Assembly: GCA_003154155.1 (NCBI GenBank)
Contig: PMCM01000147.1
Span: 1 to 32,937 of the forward strand
Origin: Ignavibacteriota bacterium
GTDB lineage: Bacteria > Bacteroidota > Ignavibacteria > UBA10030 > UBA6906
Direction: 5' to 3'
Length of the DNA stretch: 32,937 nucleotides
The position numbers and the translations under genes were made by a program. Below the pieces are notes generated by a model. It did not search any database, had not been told where the DNA came from, and saw nothing but the letters and a program-made list of their open reading frames with translations. Below are positions 4,767-25,900 of the stretch, in pieces (within the stretch, counting starts at the first letter, position 1; each line of letters opens with the position of its first letter).

Positions 4767-5471
4767 ATGGGACAGAAAGATCTTTTCCTCAAACCTGCTC
4801 CCGACGGCAAACAAGACGCTCCGGCACCCAGCCCGGCACAAAACCTGGAATCGCCGATGCCGGCCCAACGGGATATTCCTCTCCCGGGATCGACTAAAGC
4901 CCTTGACCTGGATCCGGGTCCATTCCTCGAACAGTTGAAAGAGGCAATGGAGAAATCCGATCTTCCGGGACAGCAGACCTATCTCGCCTTTTCGAAGGCT
5001 CTGAGCAATATGGACAAATTGCCGATGGACGAGGCAACGAAGTTCCAGGCCGCATTCGCCACCTTGCAGGCCACCGGAAGCGACGTCAACCAGCTGCTCG
5101 AATCGTTTCACTATTTTGACGGCATCCTCGATGCCGAAAAGGACAAGTTTGAGGAAGCGCTCCACGCAACCATCGGTGATTCCGTCATCAAGAAGGAAAA
5201 CGAGATCAAGCAGCTCACCGATGAGAATGCCGGACACTCGGCGCAGATCCAGCAGTTGACCGAGACGATCTCGGCAAATCAGCGCAACATCGCTGCGCTG
5301 CAGTCCGAACTTGCGGATGTAAATGGCAAGTTGAAGCAAAAAGAGAATAGTTTTATGTCGGCGTACCGCTCGATGAAGGATCAACTTCAGACAGACGCGC
5401 GGAAAATCAACACGTATCTCAGCTCCGCTATCGCAGCGCAGCCGCTTTCAGCCACGAAACACAAAAAGTGA
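4767..5471 (+). CDS. Soluble coiled-coil protein, first gene of the envelope ABC operon
   Basis: A 234-residue hydrophilic protein of unknown function. It has no signal peptide and no membrane helix, so it is probably cytoplasmic. Residues 1-45 are rich in proline and alanine and look disordered. About 48-130 is predicted helical and globular. About 150-220 has heptad-like spacing of hydrophobic residues with many Glu, Lys and Gln, consistent with a coiled coil. The start ATG is preceded by GAGAGGA at good spacing. The next gene begins 10 bases after the stop, so the two are almost certainly co-transcribed and perhaps translationally coupled. The context suggests it partners the coiled coil of the next protein. 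I do not recognise the family. Confidence 0.85.
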   Translation: MGQKDLFLKPAPDGKQDAPAPSPAQNLESPMPAQRDIPLPGSTKALDLDPGPFLEQLKEAMEKSDLPGQQTYLAFSKALSNMDKLPMDEATKFQAAFATLQATGSDVNQLLESFHYFDGILDAEKDKFEEALHATIGDSVIKKENEIKQLTDENAGHSAQIQQLTETISANQRNIAALQSELADVNGKLKQKENSFMSAYRSMKDQLQTDARKINTYLSSAIAAQPLSATKHKK

Positions 5472-5481
5472 GGAGATGAAG

Positions 5482-6531
5482 ATGGCCGACTCGTCGTTGC
5501 TTCCCTCAACGGTCTCGACCGCAGGCATGAAATCGTTCTGGAGCCGTAAAGAAGGAAAGACCGGAATGCTTTTCGCAGCGGCTATTCTTGCCGCTGTGGG
5601 ATACGGGCTGTTCCAGATCCTTCCCTATCTGATCACCATGACGAAGAATCTCTTGACGCTCGGCATTCTGGGCATCTGTCTTTTTGTTCTGGTCTATCTC
5701 GTGATGGATCATCAGGTGCGCACGCTGGTGTGGTATTTGTACAAATCACTGATGCGCGGCATCACCGGGGTTTTCATCCAGATCGATCCCGTGGGCATCA
5801 TCGAGACCTACGTCGCCCACCTCCGGAAGCAGCTGGAGAATCTCGAAAGCCAGATCCAGGAACTTTCCGGGGCGAAGCGCAAACTCTCCGACGCCATTGA
5901 TCGGGCCAAGGAAGAACTCGATGAGCAGTTGAACCTCGCCAAGACCGGCCAGAAGCAGGGTCTCGGGGCAGCCGAGATCACCGTATACACGAACCAGGCC
6001 GGCCGTCTCAAAACCCGGATCGAGAAATATCAGAGCCTCCTCACGAAACTGGATACGCTGTACCGCATTCTGGAGAAGATGGACAAGGCGGCCAAAGTGG
6101 TGATCCTCGACAAGACCAACCAGGTCGAAGACATCAAGATTCAACGGCAGGAAATGCGTACCGGCTTCAATGCGTTCAAGTCGGCAATGAGCATCCTCTC
6201 CGGCGATCCCGACAAGAAGGTCCTCTTCGACCAGGCGATGGAATCCATCCAGAACGACATCAGCATGAAGGCAGGAGCGATGGAGCAGTTCATTGAGGAG
6301 TCGAACGAAGTCATGAGCGCCATCGACCTCCAGAATGGTGCGTTCGAGGAGAAAGGAATGAAGCTGCTGGAAAAATGGGAGAATGAGGGGTTGCCGCTCC
6401 TCCTCACGGACGGTTCTGATCAGAACCGGCCTCCGGACCAGCAGCGCCCGGTGGACGCAAAATTCGTGGAAGTCGCCAAGGATGCCTCGAAGACCGGCGA
6501 CAACTCATACACAGACCTGTTGAACAAATAG
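5482..6531 (+). CDS. Two-helix membrane protein with long PspA-like coiled coil
   Basis: A 349-residue protein. Two membrane helices lie near the N terminus (about 29-51 and 55-75) with a very short connecting turn, so both ends should face the cytoplasm. A long, strongly charged alpha-helical coiled-coil region follows from about 102 to 290, then a polar tail. The opening of this region (DPVGIIETYVAHLRKQLENL) and its hairpin-like helix pattern resemble the PspA/IM30 fold, but this is a resemblance by eye. I chose ATG 5482 over ATG 5476 because AGGAG at 5471-5475 abuts 5476 but sits six bases from 5482. The gene is followed after 26 bases by the SBP-OmpA gene. It could scaffold the ABC complex or remodel membrane. 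Function unknown. Confidence 0.88.
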   Translation: MADSSLLPSTVSTAGMKSFWSRKEGKTGMLFAAAILAAVGYGLFQILPYLITMTKNLLTLGILGICLFVLVYLVMDHQVRTLVWYLYKSLMRGITGVFIQIDPVGIIETYVAHLRKQLENLESQIQELSGAKRKLSDAIDRAKEELDEQLNLAKTGQKQGLGAAEITVYTNQAGRLKTRIEKYQSLLTKLDTLYRILEKMDKAAKVVILDKTNQVEDIKIQRQEMRTGFNAFKSAMSILSGDPDKKVLFDQAMESIQNDISMKAGAMEQFIEESNEVMSAIDLQNGAFEEKGMKLLEKWENEGLPLLLTDGSDQNRPPDQQRPVDAKFVEVAKDASKTGDNSYTDLLNK

Positions 6532-6557: not shown

Positions 6558-8117
6558 ATGAATCGCCTCACTGTCTTTTCGAAAATTCTCGGAGGGCTGG
6601 CGATCGTTGGAATCCTGATTGGCGCCCTGTACTATCTGGGAAAGAACCCCGATGTTGCGGAGAAAATTGCCCCCACGGCGAAACCGGTGTCGGGTCCGGA
6701 GCACAAGGAAGCACGGGCGGACCGGGGTGAGAAGCTCATCGTCGGCATCAACACCTGGGGAGGTTTCGGCGGCGCGGTGTACTTCAACGGCGGATTCAAG
6801 GCTTCCAAAGAGAGCAAATTCTACACGCAATACGGCCAGCTCGTTGAGTTCAAGCTGATCGACGACTTCAACGCCAGCCGGGAAGCATGGAAGAGCGGGG
6901 ATATCGACGTCCTCGGTTTCTGCACCATCGATGCGTTCACCACGGAGATCAACGGCCTGCGACAATTTGAGCCTCAGGTCATCGGCCAGATCGACTGGTC
7001 ACGCGGGGGCGACGCGATCGTCGTGCGCCGCGGCATCAATCAGGTCTCCGATTTGAAGAACAAGAAGATCGCGGTCGCGCCAATGACCCCCTCGCACACC
7101 CTGCTGCTGTGGCTGATGGACGCGGGTGAAGTCAGCTGGGGAGACGTCCAGATTATTCCGGTCGCCAACGGCATCGATGCCGCCGACCTCTTCAAGAAGC
7201 AACAGGTCGATGCGGCAGTGGTCTGGTCGCCTGACGACCAGGATTGCGTTGCCAAGATCGAAGGTTCAAAAGTGCTCGTCAGCACCAAGACGGCTTCGCA
7301 TATCATCGCGGATGTCTGGCTGGCCAAGAAGTCCACCGTGGAATCGAAGCACGACGCACTCAAGGCCTTTGTGGAAGGCTCGCTGAAGGGGAATGGCGCA
7401 GTCAACACCGATGCAGCCGCCCGCAAGGAAGCCGCCGCGCTCCTGGCCGACGGATTCAACCAGCCGGTCGACTTCTGCGTCACGGCAATCGCCAATGCGC
7501 GTCTGGCCACCCTGGGCGACAACCAGGATTTCTTCGACGTCAACGGCAACTTTGCCGGTGTGACCGGCGAGAAGCTGTACACAAAGATGGCCCAGGCATT
7601 TGCGCAAACGAAGGACAACCAGGGACAGTACTATATTAACGGCGCCGTCCCCCCGTGGCGCACCATCGCCTACCCGGCCTTCATCCGCGCAAGCACACTC
7701 TCCGGCCCCGAACAGCTGGCCGAAGGGGGCGCAAAGTTCGCCGCGCCGACACCCGCTATGGCGACCACACCCGCCATCAGCACCAAGAAGGTCACGATCG
7801 AGTTTCCCTCCGGCTCATATACCTTGACTGACGACGCCAAGACCAAAATCGACATGGAGTTTCTTGACCTGGCCAAGGGATTCCGCGAGGCACGCATACG
7901 CATCGAAGGAAACACCGACAACGTCGGCAGCGCCGAGATGAACAAGGAGCTTTCGCGCAAGAGGGCCGTCGCCGTGGCAGCCTATCTCTCCAAATGGTTC
8001 GACCGGAACAGGTTTGTCGTGGTGGGCAACGGCCCGGACAAACCGGTGGCGGATAACGGTTCCGCCGAAGGGCGCCAACGTAACCGCCGCACGGATTTTG
8101 AGATTCTCGGCGAGTAA
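6558..8117 (+). CDS. Membrane-anchored ABC substrate-binding protein fused to OmpA domain
   Basis: A 519-residue chimera. Residues 9-27 form an uncleaved-looking N-terminal helix (ILGGLAIVGILIGALYYLG) that would anchor it in the inner membrane facing the periplasm. About 58-380 is a periplasmic binding domain of the nitrate/sulfonate/taurine (NMT1/SsuA) type (VGINTWGG start, SDLKNKKIAVAP, AVVWSPDD). A Pro/Ala/Thr-rich linker spans about 381-409. Residues 411-517 are an OmpA C-terminal domain with GNTDNVGSAEMN, ELSRKRA and QRNRRTDFEI. D454 and R510/R511 are the expected diaminopimelate contacts. The permease and ATPase follow directly, so this is their binding subunit. Simple importers have a free or lipid-anchored SBP, so a peptidoglycan-binding tether is unusual. 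AAAGG precedes the ATG. The substrate cannot be deduced. Confidence 0.92.
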   Translation: MNRLTVFSKILGGLAIVGILIGALYYLGKNPDVAEKIAPTAKPVSGPEHKEARADRGEKLIVGINTWGGFGGAVYFNGGFKASKESKFYTQYGQLVEFKLIDDFNASREAWKSGDIDVLGFCTIDAFTTEINGLRQFEPQVIGQIDWSRGGDAIVVRRGINQVSDLKNKKIAVAPMTPSHTLLLWLMDAGEVSWGDVQIIPVANGIDAADLFKKQQVDAAVVWSPDDQDCVAKIEGSKVLVSTKTASHIIADVWLAKKSTVESKHDALKAFVEGSLKGNGAVNTDAAARKEAAALLADGFNQPVDFCVTAIANARLATLGDNQDFFDVNGNFAGVTGEKLYTKMAQAFAQTKDNQGQYYINGAVPPWRTIAYPAFIRASTLSGPEQLAEGGAKFAAPTPAMATTPAISTKKVTIEFPSGSYTLTDDAKTKIDMEFLDLAKGFREARIRIEGNTDNVGSAEMNKELSRKRAVAVAAYLSKWFDRNRFVVVGNGPDKPVADNGSAEGRQRNRRTDFEILGE

Positions 8118-8173: not shown

Positions 8174-8956
8174 ATGAGCGACCTGCGCGAACCTCTGCCG
8201 AAACGCACCCACCTGCTGTACGAACTGGGCGGATTGGTGTTCATTCTGGTAGCGTGGCAACTGGTGGCGATGAAAGTCAATTCCATCGCCATCCTCCCCA
8301 CGCCGCTTGAGGTAATCGGATCATTTCCTGAACTGCATTTCCAGGACCTGATCGTCATCAACACCCTGTACTCCATCAAAATCAATCTGCTCGGCTATCT
8401 CTGGGCGATTGTCCTCGCGCTTCCGCTGGGATTCGCCCTCGGTTTGTCTACCCCCCTCGGCGCAATCTTCAACAGGTTTCTCGAAGCGATTCGTTACATC
8501 CCCCTGACCGCGGTGACCGGCCTGTTCATCGCCTGGTTCGGCATCTATATGAATATGAAGGTGCAGTTCCTCGCGTTCGGCATCTTTGTGTACCTCCTCC
8601 CTGTGGTCGTGGAACGCGTCAGAGAGCTCGACGAGGTGTACGTGCAGACCGCGCAGACCCTCGGCGCCAGCAAATGGCAGATCATTGTGAAAGTCTTCAT
8701 TCCGGGCGTCCTCTCACGCGTATCAGACGACATCCGTGTGCTGACCGCCATATCCTGGACCTACATCATCGTCGCGGAGCTGGTCAACAACGAAGGAGGC
8801 ATCGGCGCCCTGATGTTCAGGGCGTCGCGCCAGAGCAGGCTAGACAAGGTGTTCGCGGGACTGTTCGTCATCATCCTCATCGGCATCGTCCAGGACAAGC
8901 TGTTTATCTGGCTCGATCGCCATGTCTTCAAATACAAATATGCGACCGGCACATGA
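8174..8956 (+). CDS. ABC transporter permease, SsuC/TauC/NrtB type
   Basis: A 260-residue inner-membrane protein with about six hydrophobic helices and the binding-protein-dependent permease fold. The cytoplasmic coupling loop is visible as VYVQTAQTLGASKWQIIVKV (EAA motif), followed by SWTYIIVAELVNNEGGIGAL, which is typical of sulfonate/nitrate/taurine permeases. It lies 56 bases after the SBP-OmpA gene, and its stop overlaps the start of the ATPase gene by ATGA. It should form a homodimeric channel with the ATPase encoded next. Sequence does not tell which solute is moved. Confidence 0.93.
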   Translation: MSDLREPLPKRTHLLYELGGLVFILVAWQLVAMKVNSIAILPTPLEVIGSFPELHFQDLIVINTLYSIKINLLGYLWAIVLALPLGFALGLSTPLGAIFNRFLEAIRYIPLTAVTGLFIAWFGIYMNMKVQFLAFGIFVYLLPVVVERVRELDEVYVQTAQTLGASKWQIIVKVFIPGVLSRVSDDIRVLTAISWTYIIVAELVNNEGGIGALMFRASRQSRLDKVFAGLFVIILIGIVQDKLFIWLDRHVFKYKYATGT

Positions 8957-9786
8957 CCGCGACAAACAACGTCATCGAACTGAAAAATGTGTCCCAGTGG
9001 TACACACGGGACAACGGCCAGAGGACCGTCGTCATTGAAGGCCTCGATCTGACCATCGAAGACGTCCCCAAAAAGGGACAGTTCATCTGCCTCCTCGGCC
9101 CTTCCGGATGCGGCAAATCGACGGTCCTCCGGTATGTCGCCGGGCTGCAGAAACCTTCCGAGGGACAGGTCCTGCTGTACGGCAAACCCCGGAAGCCTGA
9201 GGACCATGTCGGCATGGTCTTCCAGCAGTACAGTTCCTTTCCGTGGCTGACCGTGCTCGACAACGTGACGCTCGCGCTGGCGATCAAGGGCGTCCCGAAG
9301 AATGAGCGAAAAGAAAAGGCCATGTCGTACATCCAGGCCTGCGAACTCGAGGAACATGCCGACAAATATGCGCAGTATCCGATTCTGTCGGGCGGTCAGC
9401 TGCAGCGTGTTGCCATCGCCAGAAGCCTCGTGTCGAATCCCAACCTCCTTCTGATGGACGAACCGTTCGGCGCCCTCGATGTCAATACCCGTCTGAAAAT
9501 GCAGGACATGCTGCTCGCCATATGGGAGAGGCTGTGGCACATCAACGATGCCACCACTGTCGTGTTCGTGACGCACGACATCCCGGAAGCGGTCTATCTC
9601 GGGACGGATATCTATATCATGCAGTCGGATCCGGGCAGAATTGCGCACCACCTTGTCATCGATCTGCCGTTCGACAAGACCCGGCAGGTGAAGAGGGATC
9701 CACGCTTCGTGCAATACGTGTACAATATTGAAGATATGATGATGAATGTACCGCAGAAGCGCGGGGCCGAATCCGCGAAGAAGTAA
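8953..9786 (+). CDS. ABC transporter ATP-binding protein, SsuB/TauB/NrtD type
   Basis: A 277-residue nucleotide-binding subunit. Walker A is GPSGCGKST at residues 49-57, the Q-loop lies in MVFQQYSSFPWLTV, the signature is LSGGQLQRVAIARS, Walker B is LLLMDEPFGALD, and the switch His is in VFVTHDIPEAV. The SFPWLTV stretch is characteristic of the taurine/nitrate/sulfonate subfamily. The start ATG overlaps the permease stop (ATGA), so translation is coupled. It is the last gene of the operon and is followed within 20 bases by a strong hairpin terminator. Confidence 0.95.
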   Translation: MTATNNVIELKNVSQWYTRDNGQRTVVIEGLDLTIEDVPKKGQFICLLGPSGCGKSTVLRYVAGLQKPSEGQVLLYGKPRKPEDHVGMVFQQYSSFPWLTVLDNVTLALAIKGVPKNERKEKAMSYIQACELEEHADKYAQYPILSGGQLQRVAIARSLVSNPNLLLMDEPFGALDVNTRLKMQDMLLAIWERLWHINDATTVVFVTHDIPEAVYLGTDIYIMQSDPGRIAHHLVIDLPFDKTRQVKRDPRFVQYVYNIEDMMMNVPQKRGAESAKK

Positions 9787-10073: not shown

Positions 10074-11045
10074 GTGCCGGACGAGAAACCCGTTCCGTCC
10101 ATGAGCTCTGCCGGCACAGTATTCCATATCCAGCGCTTCTCGATTCACGACGGACCAGGCATTCGCACCACGGTGTTTCTCCAGGGTTGTGCGCTAAGTT
10201 GTTTCTGGTGTCACAATCCCGAGGGGAGCACAACACATCCCGTGTTGCAGTTCTACGCAGACCGGTGCACTGCCTGCGGCGCATGCGTGCAGGCATGTCC
10301 GCATCATGCGCACGAATTTCGCGATGACGTGCATCTGTTTCACCGCGAACGCTGCGTCACTGAGGGCGCATGCGTGGAAAGCTGCTTCTCCCAGGCACTG
10401 CTTCTGACCGGCCGTTCCATGACCGTCGCGGAGGTGATGGCCGAAGTGCTGCAGGATACCGCATTTTACGAACGGTCCGGCGGCGGGGTCACCCTCTCGG
10501 GAGGGGAACCGTCGCTGAGCAGCGCATTCAGCGGAGAACTCCTTGCACAGTGCAAGGCCCGCGGGATACATACGGCCGTTGAAACATGCGGCGAGGCGCC
10601 CTGGGCTTCGCTCGCCGACCTTCTTCCGGTCACCGACCTGGTTATGATGGACATCAAGCATATGGTCCCCGACCGGCACCGGGCTGCCACGGGAAAAGCG
10701 AACGACCGGATCCTCGACAATGCCCGGCGGCTTGCAGGCACCGGCAAACCCATCGTGTTCCGCACGCCGGTGGTGCCTACCGTGAATGACACCGAGGAGC
10801 AAATTGCAGACATCGCCGCATTCATCCGGACGTTGATCGATCAGCGTAATGGTTCTGCCGCGCCGCCCGCTGATCGCGCGCACATCCGGTATGAATTACT
10901 GACGTTTCACCGGCTGGCGTCGGACAAATACCGGAGTCTGGGGAGGGAATACCGGGCCGCCACATTGGAACCCCTCCCGAAAAGCCGCATGCAGGAACTG
11001 GCGGACGTCGCAGCGCATCTTGGCGTGGACACCGCGATACGGTGA
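10074..11045 (+). CDS. Glycyl radical enzyme activating protein (radical SAM)
   Basis: A 323-residue activase that would use S-adenosylmethionine and a [4Fe-4S] cluster to generate the glycyl radical on the enzyme encoded next. The radical SAM motif is C39-x3-C43-x2-C46 (GCALSCFWCHNPE), preceded by FSIHDGPGIRTTVFLQG. A ferredoxin-like insert follows. Its first cluster has C65, C68, C71 and C75. The second keeps C94, C100 and C104 but has Glu at 97 where a Cys is expected. The TLSGGEP motif and MMDIKHM are typical of PflA-like activases. Start GTG 10074 has AGGA eight bases upstream. ATG 10101 (residue 10) is an alternative with a poorer site. The stop overlaps an alternative GTG start of the GRE gene, so the two are coupled. 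Confidence 0.93.
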   Translation: MPDEKPVPSMSSAGTVFHIQRFSIHDGPGIRTTVFLQGCALSCFWCHNPEGSTTHPVLQFYADRCTACGACVQACPHHAHEFRDDVHLFHRERCVTEGACVESCFSQALLLTGRSMTVAEVMAEVLQDTAFYERSGGGVTLSGGEPSLSSAFSGELLAQCKARGIHTAVETCGEAPWASLADLLPVTDLVMMDIKHMVPDRHRAATGKANDRILDNARRLAGTGKPIVFRTPVVPTVNDTEEQIADIAAFIRTLIDQRNGSAAPPADRAHIRYELLTFHRLASDKYRSLGREYRAATLEPLPKSRMQELADVAAHLGVDTAIR

Positions 11046-11089
11046 ACGCGCCCTCAGATCCGCCAACTCTTATATCAGGAACATCATTC

Positions 11090-13324
11090 ATGTCGACGGC
11101 ACTTGTGCAGGAGCTCTCTTTCCGCGAACGCATCGCCATGCTGCGCGCCACCAAAATGCGCCATACAGAAGAGAAATGGCGTGAAATCGGCTCGCTCGAC
11201 ATGGACGACCTTCCGATCATGCTTCCGCCGCCGGAGATGCGGAAAATCGTACGGATCGTCAGCGGTTCAGGCATTGTGATCTCCGATGCACTGTTCAGCA
11301 ACTTCATACCCACGAGCAACCACCCGAGTGGCGGATTCTTCGGCGCACGCGCCTGCGGGGAAAACTTTCGCGCTCTCCTGGATATCCACCCGCCGTACGT
11401 CGATCCGGTCAGTTCCCTGGCAGGCGGATATATGGCAAGCTTCCTCGCCTACCGCGATCCCGCCTGGAATCCCGATTGCGACTACGCGCACCTGCACGCC
11501 GAGCAGAATCTCTACAAGCTCCACCACGGCATCGGCGCGGTACAGCACTTCTGCCAGGACATGACCATCGGGTTCCGCCTCGGATGGAACGGGCTTCTGG
11601 ATCAGATTCACCGTTATCGCGGTGTGCAACGCGACGATGAGGCGCAGGAGCTCTACGACGGCCTCGAACAGTGTGTGCTGGGCATCCAGAACTGGATTGA
11701 GCGCCATGCCGCCGCCGCCCGTACCATGGCCCGCGAAGAGATGCGCCCGGAACTGCGGAAGAACCTGTTCGAACTTGCCGAGATGAATGCCGCGCTCGTC
11801 ACACGGCCTCCCGTAACATTCCGGGAGGCTTGCCAGTGGATGTTGTGGTACCAGCTCGCCGCCAAGATGTACAACATGAGCGGATCACTCGGCCGCATTG
11901 ACCAGTTTCTCTATCCGTACTTCGTTGCGGACAAGGAACGCGGAATCCTGACCGACGAAGAAGCGCTTTTCCACCTGGCGTGCTATTTTATCATGGATAC
12001 CAGCTACACGCAGCTCGGCGGACCCGACGCAGAAGGCAACGACACCACGAATCCCCTGTCGTTCCTGGTGCTCGAGGCTGCCCACCTGCTGAAGATCCCG
12101 GTGAACGTGGGAGTCAGCGTCGGCGCACATACCGATCGCCGCCTCCTCCGTCGCGGGGTAGAGATCCTCTTCGAGGACAAGACGGGGATCCCAAAATTCC
12201 TGGGCGTGGACCGCACCAGCGAAGGATTTGCCCGCAACGGCTACCCCATCGCCCTGGGACGCGAGCGCACCTATTCCGGATGCCATTGGTGCGCCATCCC
12301 CGGCAGGGAGTACACCGTCAACGATTGCGTGAAAATCAACCTCCCCGTGCTGTTTGATACTGCACTCCGCGATATGATGAGCGACCCCGCCCTGGAGAAG
12401 AACACAACGGTGCTCTGGGCCAGGTTCACCCACCACCTGCGCCGCGCCGTCGATGTCATCGCCCAAAGTCTTGATTTTCACATGGACCACATGTTCCAGG
12501 TGTATCCGGAGCTGATGCTCGACCTCCTGTGCCATGGACCTATCGAGCGGGGCCGCGACGCATCACATGGCGGCGTGGAATTTTATAATCTGTGCGTGGA
12601 TGCCGCAGGGCTCGCCACGACGGCGGACTCCTTCGCCGCTGTGGAACAACGCGTTGACCGTGAACGGAAGATCACCTGGGTGCAGTTGCGGCAGGAGCTC
12701 GACGCCGACTGGGCGGGCCCGGCCGGAGAACGCACACGCTTGATGATGAAACAAATCCCGCGGTACGGCAGCGGCAGCTCCCGGGCCGACGACTACGGCA
12801 AGATGATCGCCGGATTGTTCACGACCTCCGTCAAGGCAAAGCCCACCCCCCACGGATTTAACATGATCCCCGGCATCTTCTCCTGGGCGGCCAATATCGT
12901 GATGGGAAAGGACGTCGGCGCGACGCCCAACGGACGCCACGCGCAGTCACCGATTTCCCACGGTCCGAACCCGGATCCCGGTTTCCGCAAAGACGCCGCG
13001 CCAACCGCCCTTGCAATCACCGTCGCGGGGATTCAGCCCGGCTACGGCAATACGGCCCCGATGCAAATCGAGCTCGATCCGGGCCTGTCGAAGAACAACG
13101 AAGACATCGACAAGATCGTCGACCTCATCATCACCCATTTTGATCTCGGCGGCACACAAATCAATATGAACATCCTGGATAAGAAAGCCATCCTGGAGGC
13201 ACATAAGGATCCGTCCAAATATCCGGACCTCGTTGTCCGCGTTACCGGGTTCAGCGCTTTCTTTGCCAGCCTGTCTCCCGAAATGCGGCAAATTGTCGTC
13301 GATCGTATTATCGCGGAAGGATGA
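11090..13324 (+). CDS. Glycyl radical enzyme with atypical CHWC active-site loop
   Basis: A 744-residue pyruvate formate-lyase superfamily enzyme. The C-terminal glycyl radical site is RVTGFSAFFASLSPEMRQ with G720. The active-site loop is YSGCHWCAIPGREY with C398 and C401. Characterised GRE dehydratases and many lyases have Gly-Cys-x-Glu here (GCVEP), and pyruvate formate-lyase has two adjacent Cys. This protein has neither, so its reaction cannot be assigned by family rules. I prefer ATG 11090, preceded by AGGA at nine bases, over GTG 11042, which overlaps the activase stop and would add 16 residues. Neighbours are its activase, a UroD-like protein, a sugar-type importer and a kinase-phosphatase fusion. 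No microcompartment shell gene is present. It is oxygen-sensitive by family, which implies anaerobic or microaerobic use. Confidence 0.93.
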   Translation: MSTALVQELSFRERIAMLRATKMRHTEEKWREIGSLDMDDLPIMLPPPEMRKIVRIVSGSGIVISDALFSNFIPTSNHPSGGFFGARACGENFRALLDIHPPYVDPVSSLAGGYMASFLAYRDPAWNPDCDYAHLHAEQNLYKLHHGIGAVQHFCQDMTIGFRLGWNGLLDQIHRYRGVQRDDEAQELYDGLEQCVLGIQNWIERHAAAARTMAREEMRPELRKNLFELAEMNAALVTRPPVTFREACQWMLWYQLAAKMYNMSGSLGRIDQFLYPYFVADKERGILTDEEALFHLACYFIMDTSYTQLGGPDAEGNDTTNPLSFLVLEAAHLLKIPVNVGVSVGAHTDRRLLRRGVEILFEDKTGIPKFLGVDRTSEGFARNGYPIALGRERTYSGCHWCAIPGREYTVNDCVKINLPVLFDTALRDMMSDPALEKNTTVLWARFTHHLRRAVDVIAQSLDFHMDHMFQVYPELMLDLLCHGPIERGRDASHGGVEFYNLCVDAAGLATTADSFAAVEQRVDRERKITWVQLRQELDADWAGPAGERTRLMMKQIPRYGSGSSRADDYGKMIAGLFTTSVKAKPTPHGFNMIPGIFSWAANIVMGKDVGATPNGRHAQSPISHGPNPDPGFRKDAAPTALAITVAGIQPGYGNTAPMQIELDPGLSKNNEDIDKIVDLIITHFDLGGTQINMNILDKKAILEAHKDPSKYPDLVVRVTGFSAFFASLSPEMRQIVVDRIIAEG

Positions 13325-13406
13325 CGCCGGGCATGCGCGCGGCGCAAAGCCGAAAACCCGTTCCCCCGGCCACTATACCCGAGAACTACAGAGCCGATCC
13401 GCCTCT

Positions 13407-14504
13407 ATGATGCCTACTCCCCGCCAACGCTTCCTTGCCTATGTCAGGAATCCCGAACTGTCGCCACGGGTGGTTTCGCCGTTTCTCCCCGACGCGGGTG
13501 TAGTCTCCGCCACGCTGGCTTCTCTTGGCCTCCCCGGGAGCGGCGACCCCGTGGCAAATGAAATCGCACTTTCCCGGCATCTCGGGTACGAGCCCATGTT
13601 CATGACCGAATGCTCCGGGCTCATTTTCGACTGGACAACCATCGAATCGCGGTCTTCTGAACGCCAGGTCGTGCAGGTGATCCCGACGGCGGAAGGCGAG
13701 TGGGTCCGGCATTCACCCCGCGTGGAAGTTCCCTGGAGCGACGAATCAGGCTGCCCGGTACAAACGCTGCACGATCACGACATGCTTGTTGCCGTGTGCC
13801 GGGAGGTGGAAAGCCGCGCAACCCGCATCCGTGCGTATTTCCGGGAATGGCGGGAGCGGGTCGGGGAAAACGGCGTCATCGTGCTGGGCCATCCGCATCC
13901 GGCCTGGCTTGGCTACCAGATCAACCCCTCCAGCATTTTCTATCACTGGCAGGACTATCGTGAGGCATACATCCGGAGCATGGATGCGGTCTTTCATGCG
14001 TCTGTTTTTGTCATGTCCATCGCCGTGGATGAGGGCATCGACTTCATGAGCGACTCCAGCTACGGCCTCGAAATGACATCTCCTTCGCTCTTTGCGGACA
14101 TGGACCTGCCCTACATCAGGGCGTTTGCCCAATGGACGAAACAGCATGGCGGTCTCTTCTGGTATCACAATTGCGGTCACACACGTTCACTGATCTCCTC
14201 CGGCATGTTCAATACACTTGGCGCAGATGTCATTGAAACCCTCGCCCCTCCGCCGGAAGGCGACAACGAACTCGCCGAATCACGGGCGGCGATCGACAGA
14301 ACGATCTGTACGAAGGGCAATCTCAATCTGCAGCTCCTGCGCGACGGCACACCCGCAGAGATCGCGCGCGAGGTTCGCAGGATTGCGGGGGCGGTGCGCG
14401 GCTACCCGCATATCATCTCCACCGCAGATGCCGTGTTGCCCGGCACGCCCCCTGAAAACTTTATCGCCTTCGTGAACTCCGCACGGGAAACAACGGTCTC
14501 CTAG
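13407..14504 (+). CDS. UroD/MtaA superfamily protein in GRE operon
   Basis: A 365-residue cytosolic protein of the uroporphyrinogen decarboxylase superfamily, which includes corrinoid-dependent methyltransferases. Visible marks are DEGIDFMSDSSYGLEMTSPS followed by LPYIRAF, as in MtaA-type proteins, and the metal-ligand-like stretch YHNCGHT (H254, C256, H258). It is unlikely to be the heme-pathway HemE, because the opening PRQRFLAYVRNPE and the metal site fit the methyltransferase-like branch, and no heme genes are nearby. The start is one of two tandem ATGs (13407 or 13410), with only a weak ribosome site. It lies 82 bases after the GRE and 89 before the importer. It may act on the GRE substrate or product, for example by methyl transfer or decarboxylation. 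This is inference only. Confidence 0.82.
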   Translation: MMPTPRQRFLAYVRNPELSPRVVSPFLPDAGVVSATLASLGLPGSGDPVANEIALSRHLGYEPMFMTECSGLIFDWTTIESRSSERQVVQVIPTAEGEWVRHSPRVEVPWSDESGCPVQTLHDHDMLVAVCREVESRATRIRAYFREWRERVGENGVIVLGHPHPAWLGYQINPSSIFYHWQDYREAYIRSMDAVFHASVFVMSIAVDEGIDFMSDSSYGLEMTSPSLFADMDLPYIRAFAQWTKQHGGLFWYHNCGHTRSLISSGMFNTLGADVIETLAPPPEGDNELAESRAAIDRTICTKGNLNLQLLRDGTPAEIAREVRRIAGAVRGYPHIISTADAVLPGTPPENFIAFVNSARETTVS

Positions 14505-14593
14505 CATTCCCGGCTTCCCGGCCTTGACATACGTTGCACCGCAGCACGCTGGTGATTTCTCCAGATGATCGATCATTCAATCACGGGTGAGTC

Positions 14594-15877
14594 ATGAACT
14601 ATCTCCGCTGGATCATACTGTTGTTCCCGCTCATCATGCTTTCATGCGGCAAGAAAGCCGATGTCATCGAAATTCAGGATTGGAATTTCGGGGGCAGGCC
14701 CCATTTGATGGTATGGCTGCGCCAACGGGTGGCGTCGTTCGAAGCAACTCACCCGGGGATCAAAATTGTGCAGAGCGACAAGAGCTGGAACATGATCAGG
14801 GAAATTCTCTACGCGAGTTTCAGCACGGGCACCGGTCCCGATGTGGTGAATACGCACGCCAACTATGCGGCGGAATTCGGCGAAGCCGGCTATTACTACC
14901 CCGTCAACGCCTTCCCGGATTTCGCCGAAGTGAAGAAATGGTATGTCCCGGAACTCCTCGAATCCACCCGGTATAAAGACAACTATTACGGATTGCCGTC
15001 GAGTGCTATCGCATTCGCACTCGTGTGCAATAAGACCCTGTTTGACGCCGCGGGTATCGCTCCGCCCAAAACCTGGTCGCAATTCCGCGAAGCGGCAAGA
15101 CGTCTCACGAAGGACACCGACGGCGACGGCACGATCGACCAGTACGGCCTTGTGCTGATGGGGGGCGACAAAGGCGGCTTTGCCTATCGCCTTGTCCCCT
15201 TCTTCTACAAAGCCGGCGTGAAGTTCATGTCGGATGACCTCGCAACGATCGAATTCAACGCACCGCGGGGAGTCGCAACCCTACAACTCTTCGCCGATAT
15301 GTACCAGATCGACCACTCCATTACCCCGGGCTTCCTGGCCTACACGCACACGGAGACGAACGACATGTTTTGCGGCAACAAGGTCGCCATGTGCATTGAA
15401 GGCCCGTGGGTCAGGGGGATGGTCCACGAAAAGAGCCCCGACAAGGACATGTACGTGGTCGCTCTGCCGGTCCCCGACGACATGCTCGATCAGTATACCA
15501 CCGCTCCGACACTGCAGGACATGGTGATGTATTCGATCAATGCCCATTCCACACATCTCGCCGCAGCATGGGAGTTTGTGAAATACCTCCGGAACGAAGA
15601 AGCCGACATGGCATGGATTCGCGACGATCTGGGTGCGACGGCGACGACGAATTTCGCCCTGACCAGCCCGGAGGCGAAGAACGTGCCCGATCTGCAATTG
15701 TTCATCAATGAACTCAAGCACGCCAAGCCGTTCCCTCCCCATCCGCAGATCGTTGCCGTTGCCAGCAACACCTTCACCCCATTCTGCGAGAAAGCCATTA
15801 TCGGCGAGATGTCACCCAAGGCGGCGCTCGACCAGGCAGCACGGGAGGCACAGGATGTGATTGAGGGAAAACAATGA
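14594..15877 (+). CDS. Sugar-type ABC transporter substrate-binding lipoprotein
   Basis: A 427-residue family 1 extracellular solute-binding protein. A lipoprotein signal ends at PLIMLSC, giving lipidated Cys18. The mature domain has typical marks of carbohydrate-binding proteins: GTGPDVV, YYGLPSSAIAFALVCNKTLFDAAG, PKTWSQFREAA, and a calcium-loop-like DTDGDGTIDQYG. GGTGA precedes the ATG. Its stop overlaps the start of the first permease (ATGA). Paired with the kinase downstream, it most likely binds a sugar, polyol or related neutral compound. The ligand is unknown. Confidence 0.93.
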   Translation: MNYLRWIILLFPLIMLSCGKKADVIEIQDWNFGGRPHLMVWLRQRVASFEATHPGIKIVQSDKSWNMIREILYASFSTGTGPDVVNTHANYAAEFGEAGYYYPVNAFPDFAEVKKWYVPELLESTRYKDNYYGLPSSAIAFALVCNKTLFDAAGIAPPKTWSQFREAARRLTKDTDGDGTIDQYGLVLMGGDKGGFAYRLVPFFYKAGVKFMSDDLATIEFNAPRGVATLQLFADMYQIDHSITPGFLAYTHTETNDMFCGNKVAMCIEGPWVRGMVHEKSPDKDMYVVALPVPDDMLDQYTTAPTLQDMVMYSINAHSTHLAAAWEFVKYLRNEEADMAWIRDDLGATATTNFALTSPEAKNVPDLQLFINELKHAKPFPPHPQIVAVASNTFTPFCEKAIIGEMSPKAALDQAAREAQDVIEGKQ

Positions 15878-16743
15878 AGAAATCCACCCCGTATCTGCTC
15901 CTGACGCCCGCTCTCGTGTTTACGGCGTTCATTCTTGTCTACCCTCTCGGGCAGAACTTCATCAACAGTCTCCGGGAGGTGAGCATGGTGAAGGGAACGG
16001 GAGGCTGGGTCGGGGCAGCAAATTACATCCGCGTCTTCCGTGACCCGCTCTTTCTTCTCTCCTTCCGCAACACGCTGGTCTACGCCCTGGCGGGAACACT
16101 GCTCGCTCTCTGTTTCGGTCTCGGGCTGGCGCTTCTGCTCAACATGAAGCTGGGCCGCATCACGACCTTTGCTTCCTTCGTCTTCGCCATCCCCTGGGTG
16201 CTCTCCCCGGTCGTTGCCGGCTTCGCATGGAAATGGGTGCTCAACGATAACTTCGGCATCCACAACTACTGGCTTTCGCTCGCCGGCATCGTCAAGGCGG
16301 GTACCTCGTGGTTGGGCGATCCGCATACGGCGCTTTTCTGCGTCATCCTCGCCCGGGTCTGGCAGTTCTATCCGTTCGCCATGGTGATGTTCCTGGCAGG
16401 GCTGCAGGCAATTCCCCTTGAACAGTACGAAGCGGCGGCCGTCGACGGCGCATCCATGATCCGGAAGTTCTTCCATATCACGCTCCCCAACCTGCGTTCC
16501 GTCGCTTCTGTCCTTTTGGTCCTCGGCGTGATCTGGAGCTTTAACGACTTCAACATGGTGTTCGTCATGACGCGCGGAGGGCCCATGAACTCCTCCATGG
16601 TGCTCCCCGTGCTCGTCCGCGAGTACTCATTCGTCTACTTTGACATGGGGAAAGGCTCTGCCCTTTCCATGATCACCTTTCTGCTCCTGGTGGCCCTTTC
16701 GTCACTCTACATCCGGATCCTGGCGGAAAGAGACGCCTCATGA
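15874..16743 (+). CDS. ABC sugar transporter permease, MalF/UgpA type
   Basis: A 289-residue inner-membrane protein with six predicted helices. The EAA coupling loop is at about 186-206 (YEAAAVDGASMIRKFFHITL), characteristic of carbohydrate uptake family 1 permeases. It lacks the large periplasmic insertion of E. coli MalF and matches the shorter UgpA/LacF size. It overlaps the lipoprotein gene and the next permease gene by ATGA each, so the three are translationally coupled. It should pair with the following protein as a heterodimer. Confidence 0.94.
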   Translation: MKKSTPYLLLTPALVFTAFILVYPLGQNFINSLREVSMVKGTGGWVGAANYIRVFRDPLFLLSFRNTLVYALAGTLLALCFGLGLALLLNMKLGRITTFASFVFAIPWVLSPVVAGFAWKWVLNDNFGIHNYWLSLAGIVKAGTSWLGDPHTALFCVILARVWQFYPFAMVMFLAGLQAIPLEQYEAAAVDGASMIRKFFHITLPNLRSVASVLLVLGVIWSFNDFNMVFVMTRGGPMNSSMVLPVLVREYSFVYFDMGKGSALSMITFLLLVALSSLYIRILAERDAS

Positions 16744-17552
16744 AACGCTTTGCCCTGACTGCCCTCATTCTCGTTCTGGCGTTCGCGGTGCTGGTGCCGT
16801 TTCTCTGGACACTCTCGACGTCGTTCAAGCCCCTGACCGAAGTCGACAAATCCCCGCCCGAGTGGTTCAGCCCGCATATGAGCCTGAAGCCGTACAGCGA
16901 CATGTTCTTCTACCTGCCGTTTTCCACGTATACGCTGAACAGTCTGATCGTCGCCTCGTCGTCCACGCTGGTGACGCTGTGCGCAGGAAGCCTGGCCGCG
17001 TTCGCCTTTTCCCGGTTTACGTTCGCCGGCAAACGGGCATTCCTGGTGATCTTCCTCCTGTCCCAGATGTTGCCCGGCGCTTCGGTGATCATTCCGTTGT
17101 TTCAGCTCCTGAAGTCGGTGGGCCTCTACGACACGCATGCAGGGCTGATTCTTGTACATTCGGCGGTCCTCCTTCCGTTCGTTATCTGGCTGCTCTACGG
17201 CTTTTTCCAGGGGATCCCCCGGGAGGTGGAGGATGCCGCGCTGATCGACGGATGTTCGCGCATGATGGCGCTGCGCAGGGTCATCCTGCCGCTCGCTCTC
17301 CCCGGCATCGGCGCGACGGCCCTCTTTGCCTTTCTCGGATCCTGGAACGAATTCTTTTTTGCGTTGATTCTCACTTCCTCCGATGCCACCAAAACCATTC
17401 CCGTCGGGATCGGCCTGTTCATCGGAGAATACAACGATATCTGGAACCAAATGGCCGCATCGGCTGTCCTGTTCAGCATCCCGCCGCTGCTCCTGTTTGC
17501 ACTGATGCGGAAAACATTCGTCAAAGGCCTGGCCGCGGGAGCGGTGAAGTAG
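16740..17552 (+). CDS. ABC sugar transporter permease, MalG/UgpE type
   Basis: A 270-residue inner-membrane protein with six predicted helices and the EAA loop EVEDAALIDGCSRMMALRRV at about 162-181. It is the second half of the heterodimeric channel and is fused by ATGA overlap to the preceding permease. No ATPase gene occurs anywhere in this operon, so the channel must use an ATPase encoded elsewhere, as happens with MsmK/UgpC-type shared subunits. Confidence 0.94.
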   Translation: MKRFALTALILVLAFAVLVPFLWTLSTSFKPLTEVDKSPPEWFSPHMSLKPYSDMFFYLPFSTYTLNSLIVASSSTLVTLCAGSLAAFAFSRFTFAGKRAFLVIFLLSQMLPGASVIIPLFQLLKSVGLYDTHAGLILVHSAVLLPFVIWLLYGFFQGIPREVEDAALIDGCSRMMALRRVILPLALPGIGATALFAFLGSWNEFFFALILTSSDATKTIPVGIGLFIGEYNDIWNQMAASAVLFSIPPLLLFALMRKTFVKGLAAGAVK

Positions 17553-17581
17553 TCCGCCATCGGACCTTTGCGGGAGACCTC

Positions 17582-19483
17582 ATGGACCGCGCAACTTTAA
17601 AGTATCTTCTGGACCGCATCCGCCAGGCACGTATCGGCATCATCGGCGACTTCTGTCTGGACGTCTACCTTCTCCTCGACTCCGCCGCGTCGGAAACCTC
17701 CCTGGAAACGGGCCTCTCCACACTTCCGGTCCGCTCCCACAGGTACGCCCTCGGAGGAGCGGGCAATGTCGCCAACAATCTGTGTGCCATGGGGGTGAGC
17801 ACCATCACGGCATTTGGCGTGACGGGTGAAGACCCGTTCGGCACGCACATGCGTGAGATGCTCCTGGCACGCGGGATCAATTGCGCGGGGATCATGGTAC
17901 AGCGGGAGAATTGGGACACGCACGTGTACATGAAGCCGCATGAACGCGAACACGAACAACACCGGCTCGATTTCGGCGGGTTCAATCAGCTCCATCCCGC
18001 CACACGCACGCAACTCCTCGACATCCTTGAGCAATGCATCCCGGACCTCGACATCGTCATCGTCAACCAGCAAGTGGTACGTGGCATCCATACCGAAGAG
18101 TTCCGGACAGACCTGGGAGCGTGCATCCGATCCCATCCCGGAACGATGTTCATCGTCGACTCCCGGCATTTCGCCGACGACTACGCCAACGCCATGCGCA
18201 AGCTGAACCTGACCGAGGCTGCACGGTTGTGCAACAGGGAATCGATCCCACCGGATCAGCTTGACTCACGGACAATCACGGACCTGGCGAGCGAACTCTA
18301 TGGTCGCTGGGAGAACTGCATCTTCCTGACCGGAGGAGAACGCGGCTGCGCAGTCTTCGACAACGGCCGCCTCCAGGAAATCCCGGGGCTGCTGATTCTC
18401 GCGCCCGTGGATCCCGTCGGCGCGGGCGACAGCATGCTCGCCGGCATCGCCGCCGCCCTGGCGATCGGGGCGGCGCCCGGGACAGCCGCGGAGCTGGGCA
18501 ATCTCGTTGCGGGCGTCACCGTGCAGAAGCTGATGCAAACCGGCACCGCATCTCCGGAAGAAATCCTGAACATCGGCAGCGATCCGGATTGCCGCTACCG
18601 TCCGGACCTGGCCCGACAGGCCCACAAGGCGGTCTACTACAAGGACACGGATATCGAGGTCGTCAGCGCGCCGCCGCGGGCGGGAAACATCACCCACGCC
18701 ATCTTCGATCACGATGGCACAGTGTCAACGCTTCGCCAGGGGTGGGAGGAAATCATGGAGCCGATGATGATCGCCGCCATCATAGGCACACCCGATCGCG
18801 CCCTGGATCCTGCGCTGTACGATCATGTCCGTGCGGCCGTACGGGCCTATATCGACAAGACCACAGGGATTCAGACTCTCGTGCAGATGCGGGGACTCGT
18901 GACCCTTGTCCGCCAATTCCGGTGCATCGACGAGAAGGATATTCTGGATGAGCACGGCTACAAAAAGCTGTACAACCAGAATCTGATGAACATGGTCGAA
19001 GGCAGGATGGAACGGCTCAGACGGGGGCAGCGGACCGTGGAAGATTTCACCATCAAGGGCGCAGTGCCGTTCCTCCACGCATTGCATGAGCGCGGGGTCG
19101 TGCTCTATCTCGCAAGCGGCACAGATCAGGCGGATGTCGAACGGGAAGCAGAAGCCCTCGGATACCGTGCGCTCTTTGCCGACAGGATTTACGGGGCGGT
19201 CGGCGATATCACCAAAGAAGCCAAACGCATTGTGTTGGAGCGGATCCTGGGGAGCATACGCGACGAGTCGCCGGAGAGGATTGTGGCGTTCGGCGACGGA
19301 CCGGTGGAGATCCGTGAAACCCACAAACGAGGCGGCTACACGGTGGGCGTCGCGAGCGACGAAATCCGGCGCTACGGACTCACGCCCCGGAAACGCCGGC
19401 GGCTCATCGAGGCCGGCGCCGACCTCGTCATCCCGGATTTCTCCACATCGGCGCCGCTCGTGAACCTGCTGTTCGGCGCATAG
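17582..19483 (+). CDS. PfkB-family sugar kinase fused to HAD phosphatase
   Basis: A 633-residue bifunctional-looking cytosolic protein. Residues 1-350 are a ribokinase/PfkB fold closest in form to the kinase half of HldE/RfaE: IGIIGDFCLDVY, LGGAGNVANNLCAMG near 57-71, and DPVGAGDSMLAG with catalytic base D283. Residues 370-633 are a HAD hydrolase: motif I FDHDGT with D376 and D378, motif II in YLASGTDQ with S512, a likely Lys near 546, and motif IV FGDGPVEI with D572 and E576 where a second Asp is usual. A helical cap lies between motifs I and II. GGGAGA precedes ATG 17582, and the gene follows the permease by 29 bases. By analogy with HldE plus GmhB, it may make a bisphosphate and then remove one phosphate. 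The substrate is unknown. Confidence 0.9.
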   Translation: MDRATLKYLLDRIRQARIGIIGDFCLDVYLLLDSAASETSLETGLSTLPVRSHRYALGGAGNVANNLCAMGVSTITAFGVTGEDPFGTHMREMLLARGINCAGIMVQRENWDTHVYMKPHEREHEQHRLDFGGFNQLHPATRTQLLDILEQCIPDLDIVIVNQQVVRGIHTEEFRTDLGACIRSHPGTMFIVDSRHFADDYANAMRKLNLTEAARLCNRESIPPDQLDSRTITDLASELYGRWENCIFLTGGERGCAVFDNGRLQEIPGLLILAPVDPVGAGDSMLAGIAAALAIGAAPGTAAELGNLVAGVTVQKLMQTGTASPEEILNIGSDPDCRYRPDLARQAHKAVYYKDTDIEVVSAPPRAGNITHAIFDHDGTVSTLRQGWEEIMEPMMIAAIIGTPDRALDPALYDHVRAAVRAYIDKTTGIQTLVQMRGLVTLVRQFRCIDEKDILDEHGYKKLYNQNLMNMVEGRMERLRRGQRTVEDFTIKGAVPFLHALHERGVVLYLASGTDQADVEREAEALGYRALFADRIYGAVGDITKEAKRIVLERILGSIRDESPERIVAFGDGPVEIRETHKRGGYTVGVASDEIRRYGLTPRKRRRLIEAGADLVIPDFSTSAPLVNLLFGA

Positions 19484-22952: not shown

Positions 22953-25900
22953 TCAGAACCCCCTTCTGTATTTCCCCCCCACTTCATACAGGACGTGCGT
23001 GATCTGTCCCAGCGACGCGCATTCCACGGTATGAAGGAGTTCTTCGAAGATATTCCTTTCGGACAGCGCCGCCTGTTTCAATCGTTGGAGAGCGGCTTGC
23101 GCGTGCGGGGCGTTGCGGGCCTGAAATTCTTCCAGCTGCTTGATCCGTTCCTTCTTTTCGCTCTCCGGCGTTCGCGTGATCTTCATGGACATGTATGGGT
23201 TGTCCGGCTGCTCCTTGACAAAGGTGTTTACGCCCACGATCGGGTAGGCGCCGCTCTGCTTCTGTTCTTCATACAAGAGTGATTCTTCCTGGATTTTCGC
23301 GCGCTGGTACTGGGTTTCCATCGCCCCCATCACGCCGCCCCGCCGTGAGATTCTGTGGAACTCCTCAAGGACCGCTGCCTCCACGAGATCGGTCAGCTCA
23401 TCAACGATGAAGGCCCCCTGCTGCGGGTTCTCATTCTTGACCATGCCAAACTCGCTGGCGAGAATCATCTGTATGGCCATCGAACGGCGCACCGATTCTT
23501 CCGTTGGCGTCGTGACCGCCTCGTCGTATGAATTCGTATGCAGGGAGTTGCAGTTGTCATAATACGCGAGCAACGCCTGCAGCGTCGTCCGGATATCATT
23601 GAAGTCCATCTCCTGCGCATGCAGCGACCGGCCCGACGTCTGAATATGGTACTTGAGTTTCTGACTCTTCTCACTGGCGCCGTATGTATACTTCATGGCG
23701 ACAGCCCAGATCCTGCGCGCGACGCGCCCGATGACCGCATACTCCGGTTCCATGCCGTTGCTGAAGAAGAAGGAGAGATTGGGAGCGAAATCCTCGAGAT
23801 TGATTCCCCTCTGCAGGAAGTACTCTACATAGGTGAACCCGTTCGCGAGGGTGAACGCAAGCTGCGTGATCGGATTGGCGCCCGCCTCCGCGATATGATA
23901 ACCGCTGATGCTCAGAGAGTAATATTTCTTGATGGCGTTCCTGGCAAAATACTCCTGCACATCACCCAGGAGTTTCATGGCAAAGTCAATGGAGAAGATA
24001 CAGGTGTTCTGCCCCTGGTCTTCTTTCAGAATGTCCGCCTGGACCGTTCCCCGTACATTCCGGAACGTCCAGAGCCTCAATTCCTGCAGATCCTGCTCCG
24101 ACAACACCTGTCCGGCCCCTTCCCGCTTCCTCACTTCGCGGTGGTAGGCAACGATGAAATACATCGCCAGGATGACCGGCGCAGGAGCATTGATCGTCAT
24201 CGAGATCGATGTGGAGGGATCGGTCAGATCAAAACCTTCGAACAGGCGGTCCACGTCGTCAATGGTGCAAACGCTGACCCCGCTTTCACCGATTTTTCCA
24301 TACACGTCAGGCTGCGGTCCCGGATCCTCGCCGTATAAGGTGATGCCGTCAAACGCGGTCGAGAGACGTTTCGCCCTGTCGTTTCTGCTGATGTAATGGA
24401 ACCGGGCATTCGTCCTCTCCGGGCTTCCTTCTCCTGCAAACTGTCTGCGGGGATCTTCGGTGACGCGCTTGAACGGGAACACACCGGCAGTGAACGGAAA
24501 GTATCCCGGCAGGTTTTCCGTGTAGTAGTACCGCACGAGATCCTCCCATGACCGGTAGTGCGGCGTGGCGACTTTGGGCACCCTCAGCGAGGAGAGGGTG
24601 TGTGCAAAGAGGTCAATGGTGTGCTCTTCGTCCTGAATCGTGTATGTGATCCGATCCTGGGTGTAGCCCTTTTTCAGATCCTCCCATCCTGCAAGAAACG
24701 TCTGCGTTTCAGCTGTCAGTGTCTTCCAGAAACCGGCAAATTTCTCTTCAAGGGCGGCACGGGCGGGTTCATCCTGCCCGCACAGCGCAATGCTCTCCTG
24801 CAGCGCAAAACAGTGACCCGCGATCTTCGCCTGTTCTTCGGATGCGGCTCGATAGTGATGCACTGTATCAGCAATTTCGGTGAGGTAGTGGATCCTCCGG
24901 CCTCCAATGACACCGAAGTCACGCGCGGGCTCGACCGGCAGGGCTGCCAGGAGACTCTCGTCCACGGCATAATCCCTCAGGTGCCGGCCGCGCAGATGCT
25001 GCAACAGGTCCTTGAAGAGACGGTTCACACCGTGGTTGTTGAACTCGTTGCTGCTCGTTGCGTAGACCGGAAGTTCCCGGGGATCCCCCTTCCCGGTGCG
25101 CGGAGAGACGATGTTCCGGTTTCTGCGGTACTGGCCTGTGACATGCCGGAGTGCATCCTCGGATCCCGTTTTCTCGAACTTGTTGATGACGATATACTCC
25201 GCCATGTCGAGCATATCGATCTTCTCCAGCTGCGACGGCGCGCCGAATTCCGCCGTCATGACGAAGATCGACTGATCGCACACATCGGTGATCTTGCTGT
25301 CGCCCTGGCCGGTGCCGCTGGTTTCCACGATCACCACGTCAAACCCGTGCGCCTTCAGGAGGCCGACGCCGTCGACAATGGCCAGGCTGAGCTCATGGGC
25401 GCTCTCCCGCGTGGCACAACTCCTGAAAAAGACCCTGTCGTCGTAAATATTGTTGTAGCGGATGCGATCCCCAAGGAACGCTCCGCCCGTACGCTTCCTG
25501 GAAGGGTCGACGGCAAGCACGCCGACGGAGATGTCCCGGGAGACCTTGAGGAACCGGTTGATGAGCTCATCGATCAACGAGCTTTTACCGCACCCTCCTG
25601 TGCCGGTCACACCCAGCACGAAGGTTCTGTGCTTATCGGCCTTCTTGCAGAGCTCGCTCAGTTCCGCCAGCGCATGCGGGATGTCGACGAGGCGTTCGAT
25701 GTGCGTAAGCTGCAGGGCGATGTTCCGGTGATCATCCCTGTCGCCCCGGCAGAGCTCATCAGCCGGGTCAAACGGCAAATCGGTCGACGCAGTCTCGCGT
25801 TTCCGGGCATTGACGCGCGCAACAATGTCGTCTGCAATGCCATGGATGCCCATGTGTTGCCCGTCCACGGCGTGGTAGATTCTCTCGACACCGTATGCCT

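Follow-up and report, generated by a model that had tools for sequence, protein, structure and literature searches.

The window, by which we mean the whole 32,937-nucleotide stretch analysed, lies on a contig of a 4.2 Mb draft genome and carries, between positions 10074 and 19483, seven plus-strand genes whose identities as given in the initial annotation were all confirmed by domain and profile matches. The first (10074-11045) encodes a radical SAM activating enzyme for a glycyl radical enzyme (GRE), with an ATG at 10101 as a possible true start. The GRE gene follows (11090-13324), with ATG 11090 as the likeliest start and a GTG at 11042 as an alternative, and after it a gene of the UroD superfamily (13407-14504), whose start was placed by homology at an ATG in a frame open from 13233. 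The series is completed by a gene for a lipoprotein substrate-binding protein (SBP) of the CUT1 sugar type (14594-15877), two ABC permease genes of the UgpA/MalF type (15874-16743) and the MalG/GlcU type (16740-17552), and a gene encoding a fusion of a PfkB kinase with a HAD hydrolase (17582-19483; start ATG 17582, based on homology). The four-base overlaps reported earlier stand for the SBP and first permease genes and for the two permease genes, where they are kept in relatives. The one between activase and GRE is questionable, as it requires the doubtful GTG start at 11042, upstream of the conserved region; in most relatives this junction is a short gap of 3-42 bases.

An ABC module stops just upstream of the GRE operon. 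It contains a plus-strand gene (6558-8117) whose product joins an NMT1/THI5-type substrate-binding domain to an OmpA domain at the C-terminus; this gene is accompanied by 4767-6531 and 8174-9786 and followed by an ABC ATPase gene. Elsewhere in the window, a minus-strand gene (22953-26213) encodes a 1086-aa IcmF-like protein in which B12-binding, MeaB GTPase and methylmalonyl-CoA mutase domains are fused, and adjoins an acyl-CoA dehydrogenase gene.

The window GRE has the PFL-like domain, radical loop and catalytic Cys loop of its superfamily, and scores above the cut-offs of both PF02901 (279.5 bits) and PF01228 (49.1 bits). Its activase carries a radical SAM motif (CALSCFWC, CX3CX2C) and two ferredoxin-type Cys motifs (4Fe-4S), and passes TIGR02494 with 338.9 bits against a cut-off of 174.35. 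A cognate activase adjoins the GRE in most related loci with enough flanking sequence, and across phyla it is the only partner that these GREs have in common. Assignment to a family fails at every point we tried. The protein passes no NCBIfam equivalog cut-off (HypD, CutC, HpsG, HpfG, IAD, HPAD, PFL), its best score being 205 bits against cut-offs of 994 to 1150, and it is about 20-28% identical to GREs with solved structures. Pyruvate formate-lyase was rejected, since the motif GCHWCAIPG lacks the two adjacent catalytic cysteines and TIGR01255 gives 94.9 bits against 994.2. A microcompartment-type dehydratase locus was rejected on motif and neighbourhood, a scan of 18 window proteins having turned up no shell-protein domain.

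In a tree with PflD, YbiW, CutC, HypD and other GREs, 84 sequences that share a Cys-x-Trp (CxW) motif form a single long-stemmed clade (support 1.0), separate from PflD and YbiW (support 1.0) and nested with neither; the comparison set was small and was built without PFL, BssA and aryl decarboxylases, a truncated, out-of-frame PflB sequence having been left out. The window GRE falls in subclade A of this clade (support 0.951 in the same tree). Members from Flammeovirga, subclade B and subclade C are likewise below all of the NCBIfam GRE equivalog cut-offs. The clade is not described in the open-access papers covered, whether on GREs combined with UroD, on sequence networks of GREs or on the anhydro-sugar pathway. 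The first refuting outcome named in the initial annotation, a GRE that clusters with a characterised family, did not come about: it belongs to no known GRE family by any test run, within the libraries and open-access papers searched. The same genome encodes a second GRE (G000 contig C217; L001, L030), which is of the ordinary CxE type with the motif GCVETGAFGKE.

A GRE 71-76% identical to that of the window is carried by 12 of 150 related genomes (its own included), all other GREs in these genomes being less than 30% identical to it. The named relatives of the genome are Ignavibacteria/Bacteroidota MAGs; genes in the neighbourhoods compared were called with a codon-usage caller. The proposal that the genes form one unit was upheld: the order activase-GRE-UroD-SBP-permease-permease recurs, at about 60-80% protein identity and with different flanks, in about nine other Ignavibacteria-type genomes, some of the loci lying at contig ends or having a fragmentary gene, and also in two genomes outside that group. 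An orthologue of the UroD-like protein occurs in 12 of the 150 genomes, namely in 11 of the 12 that are GRE-positive and in 1 of the 138 others (Fisher p = 1e-14). The two exceptions are a GRE-positive genome in which it is missing (G019) and a genome without the GRE in which the UroD gene lies at a contig end (G092). Among 298 Anaerolineae-class genomes sampled independently, all six that carry the orthologue are GRE-positive (p = 2.5e-7), and GRE and UroD co-occur in Chloroflexi even on separate contigs. Because these p values count related genomes as independent they are overstated, and the recurrence of the pattern in two phyla is the stronger point. The expected co-conservation of UroD and transporter genes with the GRE was thus found. 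A close UroD orthologue is missing from most GRE-positive genomes of other phyla, which implies that this partner is not obligatory.

The UroD-like protein has a PF01208 domain with His254-x-Cys256 (H254-N-C256), Glu277 and Asp341. The H-x-C motif, as in MtaA, and the glutamate about 21 residues further on are conserved, and Asp341 is near-invariant at what, from the ligand positions of MtaA, would be the site of the third Cys ligand. It is probably a zinc protein. A haem role was rejected: there is no HemE equivalog match, and fold ranking and context are both contrary. The best Foldseek match of the model is MtaA (4ay8, E 2.7e-13, 17% identity), ranking above HemE, which raises the alternative that the protein is a zinc methyltransferase and that the operon serves the use of an O-methylated sugar, or of some other methylated compound, whose demethylated form would then be the substrate of the GRE. 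Fold and the H-x-C and glutamate pair are in keeping with this. However, the third Cys expected from MtaA is replaced by Asp, so that the fold is that of an MtaA-type zinc methyltransferase and the full set of His-x-Cys plus third Cys is not present; the only NCBIfam matches, to MtaA/CmuA-type models, are all far under cut-off; no corrinoid protein gene is found in the operon; and the context is sugar catabolism rather than haem or methanogenesis. Methyl transfer by this protein is possible, and the methylated-compound reading as a whole seems to us rather improbable.

The importer has the composition of CUT1 systems of the MalEFG and UgpABE type, with an SBP_bac_1 binding protein nearest to sugar-binding proteins, two BPD_transp_1 permeases, and a MalK-type ATPase encoded elsewhere in the genome; it differs from them in that its proteins reach no equivalog cut-off. 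The last gene of the unit, which joins a PfkB carbohydrate-kinase domain and a HAD domain in one protein, comes next in seven of the relatives with the conserved order and co-occurs with the GRE in related genomes (p = 3e-13, overstated in that genomes are treated as independent). Its inclusion in the unit by the initial annotation therefore holds within Ignavibacteria and not beyond: relatives 47-61% identical to it are present in genomes without the GRE (e.g. G001, G012, G046 and G095), it is absent from most GRE loci, and we rejected it as an integral part outside this group. Standalone fusions of this kind lie beside N-acylglucosamine 2-epimerase-type, Gfo/Idh and xylose-isomerase-like genes (L153, 5700-13761; L156, 6491-9914), and represent an unstudied kinase-phosphatase pair of their own.

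We considered whether the seven genes are merely neighbours, belonging to at least two independent modules that moved jointly. The standalone kinase-HAD genes are compatible with this, and so is a very patchy distribution: among 396 evenly sampled Bacteroidota genomes the CxW GRE was found only in that of the window, a result that bounds frequency and not presence, as the sample missed the known Ignavibacteria members and the Flammeovirga copy, and among 296 genomes of the phylum of a spirochaete MAG it was found only in the starting one. Against it stand the order conserved between different flanks and the co-occurrence of GRE and UroD on separate Chloroflexi contigs, and we regard chance adjacency as very unlikely.

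The feature that sets the clade apart, which the initial annotation, supported only in part, overlooked, lies in the active site. Tryptophan occupies the position two residues past the catalytic cysteine in 84 of 84 clade members, compared with glutamate in 10 of 10 comparison GREs, and the clade motif reads GC-x-W, then PG-x-E-Y/F. In the window GRE, numbered from ATG 11090, the residues are Cys398, Trp400, Glu407, Asp412 and Gly720 in an RVTGF loop. The catalytic cysteine and radical glycine are kept throughout; Glu407 (Cys+9, in PG-x-E-Y/F) and Asp412 (Cys+14) are invariant in the family alignments; and the radical loop is RVTG in nearly all members, versus RVAG or RVGG elsewhere. The glutamate of the CxE motif assists elimination in GRE dehydratases and CutC. 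The clade shares with the CxE eliminases (glycerol and propanediol dehydratases, CutC, HypD, isethionate and sulfopropanediol lyases) the catalytic cysteine, the radical glycine and a dedicated radical SAM activase, but not the glutamate at Cys+2 found in the sequences compared, nor their neighbours, which are shell proteins and dehydrogenases. GREs catalyse hard anaerobic reactions, and loss of the usual glutamate at the second key active-site position throughout a clade predicts either different chemistry or a replacement base. From the alignments, we expect the chemistry to bypass the standard glutamate-assisted elimination, and the conserved Glu407 is a candidate replacement base.

The same substitution raises the possibility that, instead of an elimination, the GRE carries out a C-C lyase, decarboxylase or isomerase reaction on a sugar acid or keto sugar supplied by neighbouring oxidoreductases. 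Gfo/Idh oxidoreductases lie near the GRE in many relatives, and enolase-superfamily or DHDPS-family genes in some, which together with the absence of the elimination-assisting glutamate in all 84 members would suit such a reaction. The window operon itself, however, has none of these partners, and the clade keeps the aspartate at Cys+14, which it has in common with glycerol dehydratase. We view a non-eliminase as a minority possibility, though the most plausible of the alternatives weighed here.

The AF2 model of the window GRE (mean pLDDT 90.5) has the GRE fold, and PflD is its best PDB match both by sequence and by fold. PflD and YbiW cleave a C-O bond of 1,5-anhydromannitol-6-phosphate and 1,5-anhydroglucitol-6-phosphate. 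The window operon could then be a version of this pathway with an ABC importer and a PfkB kinase, in which an imported anhydro sugar or polyol would be phosphorylated by PfkB, C-O cleavage by the GRE would give a deoxy-ketose phosphate, and the HAD domain would be a sugar phosphatase comparable to ybiV beside ybiW. E. coli likewise has genes for a sugar phosphatase and for transport near those of the two enzymes, with ybiV, ybiW, ybiY and fsaA together and pflD among PTS genes, and anhydro-sugar phosphates are bound in the PflD and YbiW structures (titles of 8id0 and 8id7). What distinguishes the window system is an identity of only 20-27%, CxW in place of CxE, its separate position in the tree, another type of transporter and the presence of the UroD-like protein, as well as the absence of the kinase-HAD gene from most GRE loci. 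The window GRE is not a member of either group, as it lacks the CxE motif and clusters with neither. We think it improbable that the operon encodes this pathway; by analogy, it may work like a carbohydrate-directed GRE locus with a predicted sugar-type substrate, for which PflD and YbiW would be the closest parallel in logic.

Searching 84,980 species genomes for patterns taken from the family alignment gave 73 loci, essentially all in metagenome-derived genomes and, where full-length, 51-76% identical. Hosts of the clade include uncultured Chloroflexi, Bathyarchaeota, KSB1, Armatimonadota, Poribacteria and others, with Spirochaetaceae, Verrucomicrobia, Planctomycetota, Lentisphaeria and Terriglobia also among the 73 loci, and one isolate, Flammeovirga kamogawensis. 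About 9% of sampled Anaerolineae-class genomes have a member. Profile scores in these genomes are about 1150-1390 bits for subclade A, 840-1040 for subclade B (GCNW) and 380 for subclade C (GCQW), compared with less than 325 for ordinary GREs. The operon is patchily distributed and has probably spread horizontally. The Anaerolineae and Bathyarchaeota are abundant in anoxic sediment, and their carbon diet is poorly known.

In eight Bathyarchaeota MAGs (L070, L071, L073, L077, L089, L095, L096 and L101) the CxW GRE and its activase are adjacent or close, from which it follows that transfer between bacterial and archaeal lineages has taken place. A Chloroflexi locus (L221, 92-5591, on a contig shared with L088) has subclade A and subclade B GREs flanking one activase, and also encodes two sugar permeases and a protein of 742 aa without a match in Pfam. 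Two further Chloroflexi loci (L218, 6968-9232; L219, 7185-9518) represent a third, more distant CxW group, with the motif GCQWFCIPGKE, 28-29% identity to the window GRE and an activase adjoining each. A GRE gene split into two frames (L106) and a UroD gene split over two overlapping reading frames (L039, 4562-5636) reflect either sequencing errors or real lesions.

Carbohydrate genes surround the GRE in several phyla. GH29-family genes lie near it in six genomes from Ignavibacteria (next to permease 2), Chloroflexi, Bathyarchaeota and Verrucomicrobia; a GH29 gene directly adjoins UroD in one locus (L238), and GH4 is near UroD in two. In one relative (G069) the operon includes, after permease 2 and ahead of the kinase gene, a gene for a DUF2961 protein with a signal-peptide-like start, and a GH172/DUF2961 gene adjoins the GRE in another (L091). 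DUF2961 members are now placed in GH172 (PMC8605356, PMC10115798). The substrates of this family are alpha-D-fructofuranosides and D-arabinofuranosides. Other neighbours include sulfatases and ThuA, xylose-isomerase-like, DHDPS-family and BNR-type genes. Plasmid p1 of F. kamogawensis encodes an activase and a GRE (KM029_RS26175, GCNW) 44% identical to the window's, flanked on one side by GH92, SusC/D, sulfatase and GH130 genes and on the other by GH47; as this copy is in a cultured isolate, substrate and function are directly testable. As a prediction, the carbohydrate-like substrate proposed earlier is thus supported by gene contexts in several phyla; since carbohydrate genes are common in these genomes, the contexts are suggestive only. 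As none of the pathway partners accompanies the GRE in every phylum, different glycans may feed into one shared intermediate on which it acts.

We favor, with somewhat better than even confidence, the view that the unit is a patchily distributed operon through which an unusual sugar, or a derivative of one, is broken down anaerobically, and in which the GRE would be a radical lyase. The SBP and permeases, with the MalK-type ATPase encoded elsewhere, would bring a compound of mono- or oligosaccharide type into the cell. Once activated by the radical SAM enzyme, the GRE would take a hydrogen off the sugar skeleton through Cys398 and then break a C-O or C-C bond, and the UroD-like metalloprotein may carry out a linked step on the imported compound or its product. 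In Ignavibacteria only, the PfkB domain would phosphorylate, and the HAD domain dephosphorylate, intermediates. More broadly, and here our confidence falls a little short of even, the CxW clade could be a functional GRE class of bacteria and archaea of anoxic sediments that performs a radical carbohydrate reaction without the CxE glutamate, with a UroD-superfamily metalloprotein as a dedicated partner in some lineages; this would constitute an undescribed anaerobic sugar route.

A different GRE, with a GCGEY motif and an activase, is encoded on plasmid pPP4 of Persicobacter psychrovividus (L232, 6579-10473), where its neighbours are a phytanoyl-CoA dioxygenase-family gene and, downstream, GH20 and malectin-domain genes; it is another GRE in a glycan locus.
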